64,000 nt of DNA from a virus, in the IMG/VR virus record IMGVR_UViG_3300043399_000446, positions 1 to 64,000 of that record. One strand, written 5' to 3'. Under the pieces are notes generated by a model. That model was not told where the DNA came from and did not search any database. It saw nothing but the letters and a program-made list of their open reading frames with translations. Within the stretch, counting starts at the first letter, position 1; each line of letters starts with the position of its first letter. Position numbers and translations under genes: made by a program. Positions 5,917 to 61,056 of the stretch are shown piece by piece.

Positions 5917-6644
5917 TTTGATTGTGCGGGTAGTAGATAAGTGTATTCTGCTACACCACTATCAACTGTAACTTGTGCAGCGCCTTGATCTGAGATACGA
6001 ACTACTTTGTCGCCAGTTAGATTCATGATTGAAATGAACTGCTTGACAGGCCACATCCAAGCACGGCTTAGTGTACCACTTACGCCTGCATGAAATACGA
6101 AGTTAGCACTATGAGTAGAAGGATCGCCAAAATAAACTTTTAGATCACCTTTATCTGTCTTTAGTGTGAAGTTAGTTTCTTCGCTATTTGCGTTAGCTTG
6201 TTTTTTCAACCTAAGAATACCTGCCACACTAGGCTCAAACTCAACGTTCCAAGTAGCACCTTTGAAGTTGAAGTTCTTTACTTTATCCTCAATAACTGCT
6301 TTAGCCATTAGACGATAATCATTTACGAAATCACCACCTGCAGTTTCAAAGTGAATCGTTGAAGGGACATCTGCGCCGTCACGATTTGTTTTTGTTACTG
6401 ATACTTTAGCCTTTTCATCATATTCTTCAAAACCCAAAATGATTTGAAGTTTACTTAGATTAGGCATACCAAATACACCCTCAAACTCAGCGATAGGTGC
6501 TTTGAATTTACCCAATACGATTACTGATTTATCTTCTGCGATAGCAGTGATATTAGTTTCAGTAGCAGTACCATTGACGCGAATCAAATCGATTACGCCC
6601 AATGAATGTGTATGTTGAATTAGATCCTGTAGAAAATCTTTCAT
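5913..6644 (-). CDS. gp45: sliding clamp, DNA polymerase processivity factor gp45
   Basis: 243 residues, close to the 228 of T4 gp45. The two-domain clamp pattern is seen by overall similarity and by context: acidic N-terminal strand, AEFEGVFGMPNLSKL segment and C-terminal ISDQGAAQV strands. In T4 this trimer rings the DNA, holds gp43 and activates late transcription. It is the first gene of the operon running to 162. A sigma70-like promoter lies at 6683-6711, and the leader also has AAAGGA before the ATG. The gene directly follows gp43, unlike T4, where gp44, gp62 and regA intervene. Confidence 0.93.
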   Translation of the reverse strand: MKDFLQDLIQHTHSLGVIDLIRVNGTATETNITAIAEDKSVIVLGKFKAPIAEFEGVFGMPNLSKLQIILGFEEYDEKAKVSVTKTNRDGADVPSTIHFETAGGDFVNDYRLMAKAVIEDKVKNFNFKGATWNVEFEPSVAGILRLKKQANANSEETNFTLKTDKGDLKVYFGDPSTHSANFVFHAGVSGTLSRAWMWPVKQFISIMNLTGDKVVRISDQGAAQVTVDSGVAEYTYLLPAQSK

Positions 6645-28306: not shown

Positions 28307-30548
28307 TGCTATCCACGCTTGCAGTATGTTTCATAGACATTACAAAGTCTACTTTGCCTTCTTTCATTACAGCAGCCACATTTGCGTTTTTGATCTTATC
28401 AAAAATAATCTTCTTACTTAGTGGAACTCTGATTAGCTCATCGATCTTGCGTGCCAGGGGTCTTGCACCCATTTTCTTGTCATAGCCCACTTCTGCCAAA
28501 TACTCTACTACTGGCTCTGTGATAGTAAGCGAAATGTTGTGCTTGTCTGCTAATTGCTTACGCAAATCTTCAGTAAACTTGATTACGATTTTCTTGATTG
28601 CTAGTGTATCAAGCTTGTTGAATTTACATACTAGATCAATACGATTTCTGAATTCTGGCTTGAAGAAGTCCTTTAGAGCTTTGTCATCTTCGCCCAATTT
28701 ATCCTGACTACCGAAACCAATATTCAATCGTTCGCTATCGCTTGAACCTAGATTGCTGGTCATGATGATGATCGTATTCTTACATGATACTACTTTACCA
28801 TTGCTGCCTGTGATCTTACCTTCATCTAGAATTTGTAAGAAGATGTTGAAGATATCAGGATGTGCTTTTTCAACCTCGTCAAATAACATGATTGCGTGAG
28901 GATTCTTGCTAAGATCATTAATTAGTCGTCCACCGCTTACTTGACTGTCGTTGAAGCCAACATAGCCAGGTGGGGGTCCAATCAATGACGATACAGCATG
29001 TTTCTCGCCAAACTCGCTCATATCATATTTGAGTAATGGCATGTCTAAGTTTTTACTTAGTAGTTTAGCCATTTCAGTTTTACCTGTACCTGTTGGTCCT
29101 AAGAACAAGAAACTACACATTGGCTTAGTTTCGTTGCTGATGCCAGCAAATGAAACATAAACACGCTCTAAGATTTCTTGTACGGTAGCATCCTGACCAA
29201 ATAGCTTGTTCTTTACATTCAACTCTAAGGTAGAGATACGATCATAATTGTCACTTTTTAGCTTATCGGCAGGAACACCTGTAAACTTCTCTACTTGTTC
29301 GTAGATCAATTCTTTAGTGATGATAGCGCCATGATTTTCTGCTACGCGCTGTTTAGCACAGGCTGCGTCAAGCAAGTCAATACTCTTGTCAGGATTTTTA
29401 CGATCATGGATGTATCGTGCAGAGCTATCTACTGCTGCCTTGATAGCCTCTTCAGTGATTTCAACATTATGAAACTCATTGAGGCGTTTGCTCAAGCCTG
29501 ATAGAATCTTGATTGTAGATTCTTGACTTGGCTCATCAACGGATACCCGATAGAATCTACGCATTAGTGCGCGATCTTTCTCAAAGCTTTCGTAGAACTC
29601 TTCCCATGTTGTGCTTGCGATGACTTTGAGTGTGCCCTTAGTGATAGCGGGCTTAATCATGTTAGCAAAGTCGATAGAACCCCCTGTTGAATTACCTGAA
29701 CCACGCATAGTATGCGCTTCGTCAATAAACAGAATAGCTTTCTTTTTAGTATTAAGTGCTTCAATAACTGCTTTTACTTTTTCCTCAAAGTCTCCGCGAT
29801 ACTTGCTACCCGCAAGCAATGAACCAATTTCAAGTGAATACACTTCATGGTCGTATAAAAACTCTGGGCATTCTTTTTCATAAATGCGTTTTGCTAATCC
29901 TTCTGCGATAGCAGTTTTACCTACGCCAGGATCACCTACCATCAATACATTGCTTTTGAACTTCTTAGCTAATACATTGATAATATCTTCTAATTCATCA
30001 TTACGACCAATTAGTGGTTCGATTTTATCTTCATGTGCTAATCTTGTTAGATTAATAGTATATTCATCTAATACTTCGTCAGCTTGATTTTCAGTCAACT
30101 TAGTTGTGTATTCACTACCCTTATAGTGCTTTTGCCAATACTGAACAAACTCATTTTTGTTGACGCCATATTTCATTAGAAAGTAATGTGCGTGACTATT
30201 ACCCTCGGAGATAATGCTTAAAAATACATCAATAGTAGTAACCTGATTGCGATTAGTGAATAATACTTGCGTAACCGCCCTATTCATTACACGCTCTAAT
30301 GAATTAGTCCTACGAGGTTCCACTGGGGTCGCGGTTGTCACGATAGAATGTAAACTATCCACATAAGCTGTTAGTTCGTTGATAAGCATATCTGCTTCAG
30401 CACCAAAATGTGCCAAACATTTTTTGAAGGGTTGATGCGATACTAGAGCTAAAGCAAGATGCTCTACGGTACAATATTTGTGGCTTCTTTCTTTCGCCAG
30501 TTCAATGGCTGCTTCAATGATGGCTTCAATTTCGGGTGAGTTTTTCAT
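28281..30548 (-). CDS. clpA: ClpA-like AAA+ unfoldase
   Basis: 755 residues, the ClpA length. A double Clp-N repeat (1-140) is followed by AAA1 with Walker A GDPGVGKT (205-212) and IDEAHT, then AAA2 with GPTGTGKT (484-491), DEVEKAHPDIF and MTSNLG. A late NIGFGSQD loop holds IGF at 610-612, the I/L/V-G-F/L tripeptide with which ClpA, ClpX and ClpC dock on ClpP. No middle coiled-coil domain is present, which excludes ClpB. It ends with the GYDKKMGARPLARKI sensor 2 region. AAAAAGGA precedes the start, three bases after the DnaJ-like stop. It probably redirects host ClpP or remodels virion proteins. Confidence 0.93.
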   Translation of the reverse strand: MKNSPEIEAIIEAAIELAKERSHKYCTVEHLALALVSHQPFKKCLAHFGAEADMLINELTAYVDSLHSIVTTATPVEPRRTNSLERVMNRAVTQVLFTNRNQVTTIDVFLSIISEGNSHAHYFLMKYGVNKNEFVQYWQKHYKGSEYTTKLTENQADEVLDEYTINLTRLAHEDKIEPLIGRNDELEDIINVLAKKFKSNVLMVGDPGVGKTAIAEGLAKRIYEKECPEFLYDHEVYSLEIGSLLAGSKYRGDFEEKVKAVIEALNTKKKAILFIDEAHTMRGSGNSTGGSIDFANMIKPAITKGTLKVIASTTWEEFYESFEKDRALMRRFYRVSVDEPSQESTIKILSGLSKRLNEFHNVEITEEAIKAAVDSSARYIHDRKNPDKSIDLLDAACAKQRVAENHGAIITKELIYEQVEKFTGVPADKLKSDNYDRISTLELNVKNKLFGQDATVQEILERVYVSFAGISNETKPMCSFLFLGPTGTGKTEMAKLLSKNLDMPLLKYDMSEFGEKHAVSSLIGPPPGYVGFNDSQVSGGRLINDLSKNPHAIMLFDEVEKAHPDIFNIFLQILDEGKITGSNGKVVSCKNTIIIMTSNLGSSDSERLNIGFGSQDKLGEDDKALKDFFKPEFRNRIDLVCKFNKLDTLAIKKIVIKFTEDLRKQLADKHNISLTITEPVVEYLAEVGYDKKMGARPLARKIDELIRVPLSKKIIFDKIKNANVAAVMKEGKVDFVMSMKHTASVDSNGIIQVNN

Positions 30549-57370: not shown

Positions 57371-57482
57371 TTTATATTTCCTTTATTGTAAAATTTTGAG
57401 GTTTACCGCCTGAGTTATAAGATTATTTAGCAAAAATTTCAAAAAAGTGCTCAAACCGTGCCTTCGAAGGTTCCAAAACATA

Positions 57483-57490
57483 AATACTTT
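57483..57490 (+). other. gap 57371-57490 between divergent genes
   Basis: The 120 bases between the gp18 start and the plus-strand Zn/HNH gene hold a CATAAATA octamer at 57479-57486, four bases before the ATG at 57491. A leader with AAGGAA for gp18 lies on the other strand. I see nothing else. Confidence 0.4.
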
Positions 57491-57835
57491 ATGAGACCTA
57501 TTTGCGAAACCTGTAACAAAAATGTCAGGTCAATAAATTACATTAAAAATGGACAATACCATTACCGTAGCCAATGCGATGAGTGTAGAAGAAAGAAAAT
57601 AAATCTACCACCTAGAAAACCTAATTGGCTCAGGAGTGGTTATAAGAAAAAACCCGCATGTGATTTATGCGGGTTTAAGTGCATCTATCAATCTCAGATA
57701 GTAGTCTATCACATTGATGGTGACTTAGAGAACATTGAATTTAATAATTTACGCAGCGTGTGTTTGAATTGTATTGAAGTAGTAAAACGTACAAAGGTTA
57801 CTTGGCGCAGGGGTGATTTAAAAGTTGACTACTAA
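57491..57835 (+). CDS. HNH-like zinc-binding protein
   Basis: 114 residues from ATG 57491; a GTG at 57458 adds 11. Two Cys pairs (CETC...CDEC) at the start and CDLCG...CLNC around IVVYHIDGDLENIEFNNLRS make the HNH/treble-clef pattern with a His-Ile-Asp core. Related small proteins occur in T4-like cyanophages beside tail genes. It is one of few plus-strand genes and is convergent with the dNMP kinase, overlapping its end by 18 bases. Nuclease activity is unproven. Confidence 0.75.
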   Translation: MRPICETCNKNVRSINYIKNGQYHYRSQCDECRRKKINLPPRKPNWLRSGYKKKPACDLCGFKCIYQSQIVVYHIDGDLENIEFNNLRSVCLNCIEVVKRTKVTWRRGDLKVDY

Positions 57836-58522: not shown

Positions 58523-59308
58523 TTATCCCTGTACCCAAGTCAACGGCTGTGAATAGTCAACATAACGCTTGAGTTCATCAATCAAACGTTCTTGGTCAGC
58601 TTTGCTTTCAGCTTTCATAGCTGAACCATTCAATGTTGTGCCACCACCTGGACCCACAATACTACCATATTTTTCACGGGCCTCACCTATGATACCTTTT
58701 AGAACTGCTAGTGTATAGTCACCTATCCAAACACCAGCACCTGGATCTTGTAGTAGCACTTCTTCAGGTCTTTGGACATCTGCCCAAATAAGGACTCTCT
58801 CGCCTGTTCCTTTAGGGTCACGGACAATACGTAATACTTTGGTAACAGGGTCAAATGTATAGATAACGTAACCACCAAACATACGTGCAGCCAGTTCTAC
58901 ATAACCTGCGTAAAAGTCATAAGTTGCCATACCACCAGCATAGTTATAATTTAGCAGGTAAGTATTAAGGATAGCACTACTAAAAGGATCAAATGAAGAT
59001 GATGCTGGTCCTGTTTCCATACCCACGGTTCTGCGGAAGATTGATCTTACGTTTATGAATTCCTGTGGCAATGTATAAGTGTCAACATTCTTGACCACAG
59101 TCATTAATGTATATGATTCCGCTGTGGCATTTTGTGCCCGTTGACGGTAAATTTTAATGGCGTAATTATAAGCAGCTTCAAAATGCTGGGGATCTAACTC
59201 CAGGTCTACAATATCACCACCTAATCTTAGGCGCAGATTTTCAAACATTGCGTTTTTTAATTCGTCTAACGTGTATCCATTAGGTGTATTAAGTATATTA
59301 GCTGCCAT
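58523..59308 (-). CDS. gp13: neck protein gp13
   Basis: 261 residues (T4 gp13 has 309). TLDELKNAMFENLRLRLGG then VDLELDPQHFEAAYNYAIKI, and KNVDTYTLPQEFINVRSIF match the gp13 N-terminal helical and strand pattern of T4-like cyanophages. The C-terminal part ends in LIDELKRYVDYSQPLTWVQG. It joins head and tail with gp14. Its leader holds a GATAAATA octamer at 59331 and TATAAAT downstream of it. Confidence 0.8.
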   Translation of the reverse strand: MAANILNTPNGYTLDELKNAMFENLRLRLGGDIVDLELDPQHFEAAYNYAIKIYRQRAQNATAESYTLMTVVKNVDTYTLPQEFINVRSIFRRTVGMETGPASSSFDPFSSAILNTYLLNYNYAGGMATYDFYAGYVELAARMFGGYVIYTFDPVTKVLRIVRDPKGTGERVLIWADVQRPEEVLLQDPGAGVWIGDYTLAVLKGIIGEAREKYGSIVGPGGGTTLNGSAMKAESKADQERLIDELKRYVDYSQPLTWVQG

Positions 59309-59330
59309 AATTTTAATCCATTTATAAATT

Positions 59331-59338
59331 TATTTATC
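59331..59338 (-). promoter_or_regulatory. late promoter of gp13
   Basis: GATAAATA on the minus strand, 22 bases before the gp13 ATG; a TATAAATG lies between. Confidence 0.6.
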
Positions 59339-59375
59339 TGGATTTTCTGGTTCTCTAATCATTCCTAGGCAAAAG

Positions 59376-59398
59376 GCGAGTAGATATGCTCTACTCGC
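59376..59398 (-). terminator. terminator at the end of the structured region
   Basis: A 9-bp stem (GCGAGTAGA and TCTACTCGC) with a 5-base loop, followed on the minus strand by CTTTTG. It closes the transcript coming from the oxygenase gene and the structured region. Confidence 0.75.
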
Positions 59399-59760
59399 AA
59401 AAATAAAAACCATTCCTTAGGCTCTATTACAGAGGCGACGATGAATTTAAAGATTAAGGTGGAGGATTGTCTATGTCTCACCTACCCCTCAAGGGGACTT
59501 TACCATATTCGCTGCAAAGTCAAAACATTATTCATCGGGTAGTTTTGACCAGCCTGGGCCCTCTATCGCTATTACCATGACCCAGCAACATCAACCATTA
59601 AGATACAGGAAACGTTTCCGTCAAGGGACGGACGTTTAGGCATCATAGGGTAGTCCTGTAAATTCGGCGTTGGTCTCACCTGCCACCGTCACCCGTGAAT
59701 AGGGAACGGATTATAGACACACTCCAGGGCGTGTGTTTGCCCATTAACCAATAATTATTA
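59399..59760 (-). ncRNA. putative structured non-coding RNA of unknown family
   Basis: A 450-base gap (59309-59761) with no open frame, in a genome where gaps are mostly under 100 bases. It is dense in self-complementary segments. GTCAAAAC/GTTTTGAC (59519-59549) makes an 8-bp stem and CCCC-TCAA-GGGG (59485-59496) another. TACAGG/CCTGTA (59604 and 59655) encloses AAACG-TT-TCCGTC / GACGGA-CGTTT (59610-59637). GGGC/GCCC (59727-59742) has its GTGTGT loop complementary to ACACAC at 59717, an H-type pseudoknot. A terminator follows. Transcription on the minus strand is assumed. I checked for tmRNA, RNase P and group I signatures and found none. A large ornate phage RNA (GOLLD or ROOL type) is the nearest idea, without sequence proof. 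Confidence 0.55.
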
Positions 59761-59761
59761 C

Positions 59762-60631
59762 TTACTTGCTATTTTCGTAAGACCATTTCCAAGTATAACC
59801 TTCTTCTAGACCTAAACTGTCACACAATTCATCAGTAAAGGTACCATCAATTCGTAATGTATATCTAAATCCTGGTTCAGGATCTACACCATGATAGTCG
59901 CGGTTATTGAAAAAATAACTTCTAGCTCCTGAAGGGAGATAATGTTTTTCTTTATTTTTTTCATCCCATATAAAGCTAGGTCTCCACCCACCATCAAAGA
60001 ACAAGTTTATATTGTGATCTTTATGTTCTGCTACGATACTATCTCTGTGTATAGTTACCCCTGCGTTGGGATAAGTAGTGAAGAACATTATTCTTCCTAT
60101 TTCTTTGAAAGGTAGTGTTTTTATATATTCTAGTAGTTTAGGGAAATGCGATGCTGCAGGAGTCCAATTATCATTATTTTGAGTTTTATTCCTGAAGTCA
60201 CCGTGCTTTAGATAAAGAGCAAAGAACCAAGGTATAGCTGACCCTAAAGCAAAGTACGCATACTTATAAAATGCCTGTATTTCTTGGCCTTTAGGGGCTT
60301 TACTTATCAGATCCAGTAAAGCGTGATGATGAATCCCTGAGGGATCTAAAGTAGATAGAATTTTAGTCCATGACCCGTGATTATCATATCGCAATTCTTC
60401 TTCAGGGGGTATATCACCATATATCATTCCCATCTTGTATTCAGTAGCTAATGCTAATCCTTGGCAACATTCTATATGTAATTCAGTATCCATACTATGG
60501 TCGATAAATTGATCCATAGATATTATCAGTTGTTTTTTGATACCTACACCTTTAGCTCCATATTCTTGGTATTCAAAATGGGGTATTGAAATGTTTCCTA
60601 TACTGAATATTTTATGTGCTTGGTTGTTCAT
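59762..60631 (-). CDS. 2OG-Fe(II) oxygenase-like protein
   Basis: 289 residues. The C-terminal half carries H195-R-D197 in VTIHRDSI, distal H247 in RDYHGVD, and R256 or R260 in GFRYTLRIDG for 2-oxoglutarate, with the strand order of the cupin-like oxygenase fold (aspartyl hydroxylase type). The N-terminal half is unknown and helical. It shares no recognisable detail with the oxygenase at 3449 except the fold. It overlaps the MazG stop by four bases (ATGA). Confidence 0.75.
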   Translation of the reverse strand: MNNQAHKIFSIGNISIPHFEYQEYGAKGVGIKKQLIISMDQFIDHSMDTELHIECCQGLALATEYKMGMIYGDIPPEEELRYDNHGSWTKILSTLDPSGIHHHALLDLISKAPKGQEIQAFYKYAYFALGSAIPWFFALYLKHGDFRNKTQNNDNWTPAASHFPKLLEYIKTLPFKEIGRIMFFTTYPNAGVTIHRDSIVAEHKDHNINLFFDGGWRPSFIWDEKNKEKHYLPSGARSYFFNNRDYHGVDPEPGFRYTLRIDGTFTDELCDSLGLEEGYTWKWSYENSK

Positions 60632-61056
60632 AAATCTCTTTCTTTTCTATTTTCGCTATAGAAGGGATCAAACTCTCCACCAGGATATCGTGCTTTTAGT
60701 TTTTCTACATTCTCAGCAACAACATCATTGGGATCGTAACCTAGTGCGCGGCAAGCATTTATCCAATACCAAATGATATCGCCTAATTCACGTTTCATGT
60801 GATAGCGATTTTCTTCAGTATAGGGCTTACCTTGAAACGCCATCTTTTTGACGATTTCACTAAACTCCCCGCCTTCACTTGCCAACCCAATACTTGCGGT
60901 AAGTAGTAAGGGCATGTTTAGTTGTAAACTATGAACAGCAGCCTGCCTTTCCAACTTATGAATAGAATCTATAAAAGACTCTACATAATTTGATTGGTTG
61001 CTAGTTACGCCAGCTACAAACTCTTTGTATTTGTTTAAGTCGATTTTTTTATCCAT
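60628..61056 (-). CDS. mazG: MazG-type nucleotide pyrophosphohydrolase
   Basis: 142 residues. The MazG metal motif is visible as ASEGGEFSEIVKK and, later, ELGDIIWYWINACRALG (E-x-x-E...E-x-x-D). It ends with NVEKLKARYPGGEF, a usual close. MazG proteins of cyanophages hydrolyse nucleoside triphosphates or alarmones; here it stands in an early-type operon. AAGGAA lies before the start. Confidence 0.9.
   Translation of the reverse strand: MDKKIDLNKYKEFVAGVTSNQSNYVESFIDSIHKLERQAAVHSLQLNMPLLLTASIGLASEGGEFSEIVKKMAFQGKPYTEENRYHMKRELGDIIWYWINACRALGYDPNDVVAENVEKLKARYPGGEFDPFYSENRKERDL

Follow-up and report, generated by a model that had tools for sequence, protein, structure and literature searches.

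Among the large RNAs with pseudoknots that occur in phages and prophages are ROOL and GOLLD, which are often located close to tRNA islands, assemble into homo-oligomeric RNA nanocages and have no known function (PMC12286853). The RNA described here resembles them in being large, phage-borne and noncoding, with multiple pseudoknots, an unknown function and no obvious protein partner (PMC12286853). It differs from them in that their covariance models do not match it, in its size (about 380-500 nt across the family, vs. 659 for the ROOL studied and often >800 for GOLLD), in the absence of tRNAs from the window (the whole 64,000-nt stretch of DNA that was analysed, taken from an 86-kb virus record) and in its location, with MazG and neck genes on either side or terminase genes downstream. 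Since it matches no Rfam model, is smaller and has no tRNAs beside it, the RNA is not a member of ROOL or GOLLD; by analogy, it may at most work like them. The bacterial OLE RNA is another large, ornate RNA with a complex fold (PMC12286853), but its Rfam model does not match either, and the present RNA was found only in virus contigs. The phi29-type packaging RNA (pRNA) is likewise phage-encoded and structured, and some copies of the RNA described here lie near head or packaging genes; however, there is no Rfam match, the virus groups are different, and many close relatives of the carriers do without this RNA. pRNA is also much smaller.

Searches against Rfam 15 with the whole window and ten diverse homologous loci gave no match at gathering scores (GOLLD, ROOL and OLE included), and at permissive E-values (up to 5-10) the gap and its homologues returned nothing meaningful. 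An Xoo1 match in the gap is due to chance (21.9 bits vs. a threshold of 70). ARAGORN detected 0 tRNAs and no tmRNA in the window, and there are no tRNAs around either of the two copies in a 277-kb contig. We rejected tmRNA on the ARAGORN and Rfam results and RNase P RNA on the lack of an Rfam match even at permissive E-values, in agreement with a preliminary description of the locus, made from the sequence alone, which had found no signature of either or of a group I intron or tRNA and had proposed the Rfam comparison. A literature search for the conserved motif found none, unpublished and subscription-only RNA families being outside its coverage, and the conserved loops are no more complementary to E. 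coli rRNA than shuffles are.

Extent, strand and covariation of the RNA

The gap at 59309-59761 (453 nt) is the longest gene-free stretch of the window, as the preliminary description had it, with the runner-up measuring 205 nt. That description had read the gap as a structured RNA; this is correct in that there is one compact RNA, but it lies on the minus strand and not on the plus strand, which had been folded. Based on the alignment of homologues (nhmmer, MAFFT alignment A3), the conserved structured RNA extends over 59360..59756 on the minus strand, corresponding to ~390 bases in the window; the transcript ends have not been mapped. We assign it to the minus strand, which is also that of the flanking genes, because the fold is more stable relative to shuffles on this strand (z -2.88 vs. 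-2.00 for the plus strand) and because the homologous RNA is always on the neck-gene strand wherever a neck gene follows. The RNA is not protein-coding and has no conserved ORF, with several stops on average in every frame and with lengths that are divided evenly among the three residues modulo 3.

We relied on covariation to define the helices, as single-sequence and RNAalifold folds mis-pair the long-range regions. Column-pair statistics on 64 sequences, compared with a null that keeps the tree and the substitution numbers, gave 22 pairs at E<1, nine of them above every null value and nearly all Watson-Crick and stacked. In a separate MAFFT alignment of 49 diverse members (A3), 90.7% of cells are paired and 65 of the 85 proposed pairs have two-sided changes, with a covariation score of 0.380 compared to 0.152 for shuffled and 0.064-0.097 for slid controls. 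A conserved secondary structure with covariation beyond phylogeny, the criterion for a new RNA family as such, is present. The preliminary description had suggested looking for covariation in environmental homologues; more than 100 loci display massive compensatory change in the stems that it listed, and together with the absence of an Rfam match this supports its proposal of a possible new phage RNA. As single-sequence folds outperform shuffles by a modest margin only (z -2 to -2.9), it could be argued that there is no functional RNA and that the stems arose by chance in an AT-rich spacer, but covariation across 49-64 diverse homologues refutes this, and we see practically no room for it.

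Fold and pseudoknots

The RNA, all elements of which are given here on the minus strand, contains at least three pseudoknots. Its 5' domain (59670..59751) is closed by P1 (59747-59751 with 59670-59674; five of five pairs with two-sided change) and includes an H-type pseudoknot at 59718..59742, in which PKa pairs GGGC (59739-59742) with GCCC (59727-59730) and PKb pairs CACAC (59731-59735) with GTGTG (59718-59722). This pseudoknot, already proposed at 59717-59742, can be written in 49/49 diverse homologues, in most of them at an unchanged position and with alternative complementary sequences in both helices (AGGU/ACCU, GGGC/GCCC, GAGU/ACUC; CCGC/GCGG, CCAC/GUGG, CUGUGU/ACACAG). PKa is included in the A3 covariation count; PKb, the inner stem, is only 45% paired there because the segment is misaligned, and was therefore scored per sequence. 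The P3 hairpin (CCGT:ACGG, 59686..59709) has 99% of cells paired and three of four pairs covarying. P4 (59654-59660:59604-59610; 97.7% paired, 7/7 covarying) surrounds P5/P5b (59627-59636:59611-59622) to form an arm at 59604..59660, whose pairs are significant against the phylogenetic null. It is followed by the P6 hairpin (59554..59585; 100% of cells paired, 6/7 covarying) with its conserved loop GUAAUNGCGAUAGA, and by P7 (GCTG:CAGC, 100% paired) around P8 (GTCAAAAC:GTTTTGAC; 86-90% paired, 8/8 covarying) at 59511..59553. The 3' domain (59449..59501), supported by the same covariation count, consists of P10 (59498-59501:59449-59452), P11 (CCCC:GGGG, 59493-59496:59485-59488) and P12 (59479-59483:59457-59461), the latter with a near-invariant loop segment, GACATAGACAATCCTCC, at 59461..59477, of which the variants GATATAGTC, GACATAGTC and GACATAGGC exist. 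In alignment A3, the long loops are conserved beyond pairing. Some subfamilies only (L107, L100, L147 and others) have an extra hairpin before P6 with an AGUAAU loop (GUAA, GNRA-type).

All stems named in the preliminary description are thus conserved: 59519-59549 is P8, 59604-59660 is P4/P5, and CCCC-TCAA-GGGG is P11. Two of its other statements need correction. The hairpin regarded as a terminator bounding the region is P13, which is inside the RNA and in most homologues has no U-run after it, and the GTCTCACCT repeat (59475 and 59673) is only partly conserved and, as a repeat, is not part of the conserved fold: one copy is P12 and part of its loop, the other a variable P1 flank. Two long-range pseudoknots that could not be seen in that reading, PK9 and P15, are both part of the conserved fold. 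PK9 (59440..59536) pairs the P8 loop GATGAAT (59530-59536) with ATTCATC (59440-59446), with 97.7% of cells paired and 5/7 pairs covarying. P15 (59376..59569) connects GCGATAGA in the P6 loop (59562-59569) with TCTA-C-TCGC (59376-59384), or, in RNA letters, GCGAUAGA with UCUA-C-UCGC near the 3' end; it is paired in 49/49 members, and its two sides have changed together in seven distinct RNAs (GUGA/UCAC) and in one more (GCAA/UUGC). The P13 hairpin (GCGAGTAGA:TCTACTCGC, 59376..59398; 79.9% of cells paired) shares its 3' strand with P15, and in L147 and L199 it is not formed by this strand. P15 is therefore the constant element, and an exchange between P13 and P15 on the shared strand is possible but unproven.

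The pseudoknotted core and long invariant loops, together with an optional presence at a fixed gap and spread to unrelated phages (see below), could point to a mobile RNA passed among phages, either a ribozyme or a self-splicing element of degenerate or unusual type. Some members have a UAUAGUC-like motif, and GAUAUAGUC, also in some members, resembles by eye the S element of group I introns. We nevertheless think that such an origin is rather unlikely, given that no group I/II, RNase P or self-cleaving ribozyme model of Rfam matches even at permissive thresholds, that no gene is interrupted and that no endonuclease is consistently attached. A group I intron specifically was rejected, as no covariance model matches and the GACUA-side bases, which would belong to P7, pair and covary in P4 instead.

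Genomic setting and distribution

Downstream of the RNA is the gene for a neck protein (head-tail adaptor Ad2; 58523..59308, minus strand; phrog_211, E 3.5e-22), with dNMP kinase and tail sheath genes also downstream of the gap. The upstream neighbour is a 289-aa gene (59762..60631, minus strand) without a family match that varies among homologues, and a MazG gene is located upstream at 60628-61056. In the main lineage, the gene order is MazG, variable small genes, RNA, neck, kinase, an opposite-strand ORF and sheath. The MazG-neck interval (59309-60628 in the window), like its counterpart in homologues, is a hot spot where genes are gained and lost; the genes from MazG to the RNA vary among relatives (c11, c13, c17, c21, c27 and the 289-aa gene of the window). 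An HxD...H pattern, noted by eye in the 289-aa protein, may mark it as a 2-oxoglutarate/Fe(II) oxygenase. Between the dNMP kinase and tail sheath genes there is a 125-aa ORF with CxxC pairs on the opposite strand (57458-57835, plus), for which Pfam gives no match but which by eye looks like an HNH-type endonuclease; most relatives have an opposite-strand ORF (cluster c4) at this place.

A T4-late-promoter-like motif of the neck gene, GATAAATA, called by motif only, is present at 59331..59338 on the minus strand, downstream of the RNA. The late-promoter-like motif TAAATA occurs between RNA and neck, or near the neck start, in 32 of 48 loci with the RNA and in 47 of 47 relatives without it. By contrast, a TAAATA-like motif is found within 150 nt upstream of the RNA in only 5 of 65 cases, and motif inspection upstream of the RNA revealed no obvious promoter of its own. 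In the window as a whole, the minus strand has 36 NATAAATA motifs and the plus strand 8, a distribution that fits T4-like late promoters on the coding strand. In several loci (L143, L109, L115, L098 and others), a GC-rich hairpin and its T-run separate the MazG stop from the start of the RNA; this is like an intrinsic terminator, through which transcription of the RNA would need to pass.

A search with the neck protein yielded 80 relatives, most with only ~55 nt between MazG and neck; nine share the gap at the DNA level (73-100% identity), oriented without exception like the neck gene. Scanning IMG/VR with the most conserved 17-mer, GACATAGACAATCCTCC, produced 80 stretches, nearly all with the full RNA by profile search, and other patterns added ~30 further loci. 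In total, there are more than 100 IMG/VR loci with ~80 distinct versions (103 loci with 71 distinct sequences before the last scans). BLASTN of five members found no homologue in named or cultured phages, and an R1 search of Atu_ph07, PA5oct, RaK2 and PBECO4 found nothing, with no positive control among these records. A pattern scan of bacterial and archaeal genome contigs (genome_contigs) gave nine matches, all due to chance as judged by profile. Within the collections searched, which left out metagenome contigs, only uncultured viruses appear to have the RNA.

The RNA is optional, with most close relatives lacking it. A covariance model of the core, whose short calibration makes its E-values rough, detects one copy in each of 13 carrier records (including that of the window) and none in the contigs of five RNA-less relatives, where absence is weak evidence since these contigs are fragments. 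No copy is present in the ~190-nt gaps of L019, L030, L032 and L042, which fail to align with the RNA. The 277-kb contig has two diverged copies, at 30465 and 251233, one ~1 kb upstream of a neck gene and the other elsewhere. The second, diverged copy in this phage (L199, G001:245000-258000, about 5940-6560) has a terminator-like hairpin and a TATACT box in front of it.

At least two unrelated phage lineages, with different neighbours, carry the RNA. The first consists of T4-like jumbo phages, in which all six large carriers have the phrog_10581 sheath and lack phrog_145. In the second, different genes come after the RNA, with terminase (phrog_2) and portal (phrog_145) further downstream; no sheath was found in its contigs, which are fragments. 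Given that it adjoins neck genes in one lineage and precedes terminase and portal genes in the other, the RNA might serve virion morphogenesis or DNA packaging, similarly to phi29 pRNA. This evidence is positional only, close relatives have neck and sheath genes but no RNA, and no packaging-RNA family of Rfam matches, making such a role improbable in our view.

The location of the main-lineage RNA, which is nearly always just upstream of the neck gene, would also suit a cis-acting leader or 3'-end element, riboswitch-like or autoregulatory, for the neck gene or late operon, and the competition of P13 and P15 for one strand is as in a switch. However, the late-promoter-like motif separates the RNA from the neck gene and is present in RNA-less relatives too, the next genes in the second lineage are unrelated, only one of the two copies in the 277-kb contig is near a neck gene, and the RNA is much larger than typical leaders. 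We therefore give cis action only a small chance of being correct. From the genomic setting, i.e. the promoter-like motif, the two lineages, the two copies and the RNA-less relatives, we favour an optional, exchangeable, trans-acting RNA gene.

A possible trans-acting RNA

The RNA is probably not a neck-gene leader or intron; because it is upstream of the late-promoter-like motif of the neck gene, it is probably free-standing, trans-acting and co-transcribed with the upstream genes. Read together with the established late promoters of T4-like phages, the arrangement would have the RNA transcribed with MazG and the accessory genes, by read-through from the genes above, while the neck mRNA would start downstream of it. 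There are no transcript data, and that the RNA is transcribed as a stable molecule and acts in trans is an inference, albeit one that we consider quite probable. Going by the conserved helices, the transcript is predicted to fold into a compact globule with a 5' pseudoknot domain, a P4/P5 arm and a P6-P12 core that PK9 and P15 would lock. The RNA might then work in trans in a similar way to ROOL and GOLLD, as either an oligomer made of RNA alone or an RNA-protein scaffold. This last step is a tentative guess by analogy, made without oligomerisation data and with somewhat less than even confidence, and a ribozyme or a regulator are alternatives.

Overall, the explanation we prefer, with moderate confidence, is a new family of free-standing, trans-acting structured noncoding RNA that is an optional gene of uncultured lytic phages, with an oligomer or scaffold as the most likely role. 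It is limited by the lack of an obvious own promoter and of transcript data, and by the identification of late promoters by motif only. A bolder version, which is conceivable but which we would not bet on, is an undescribed class of RNA machine, either a ribozyme or a self-assembling RNA, passed between large phages as a gene in its own right. In such a machine, the P13 hairpin and the P15 pseudoknot, which compete for one strand that varies in concert with both of its partners, might alternate as two states of the core.

Few large structured noncoding RNAs (ROOL, GOLLD) are known to be conserved across phages, and what they do is unknown; the present RNA is a separate family, and looks like a new class of large phage RNA distinct from those in Rfam. 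Its fold is well determined, so that conserved positions and competing helices are known ahead of probing, cryo-EM and knock-out experiments. Finally, the optional presence of the RNA among closely related phages provides natural plus/minus pairs, making the role of a large phage RNA directly testable.
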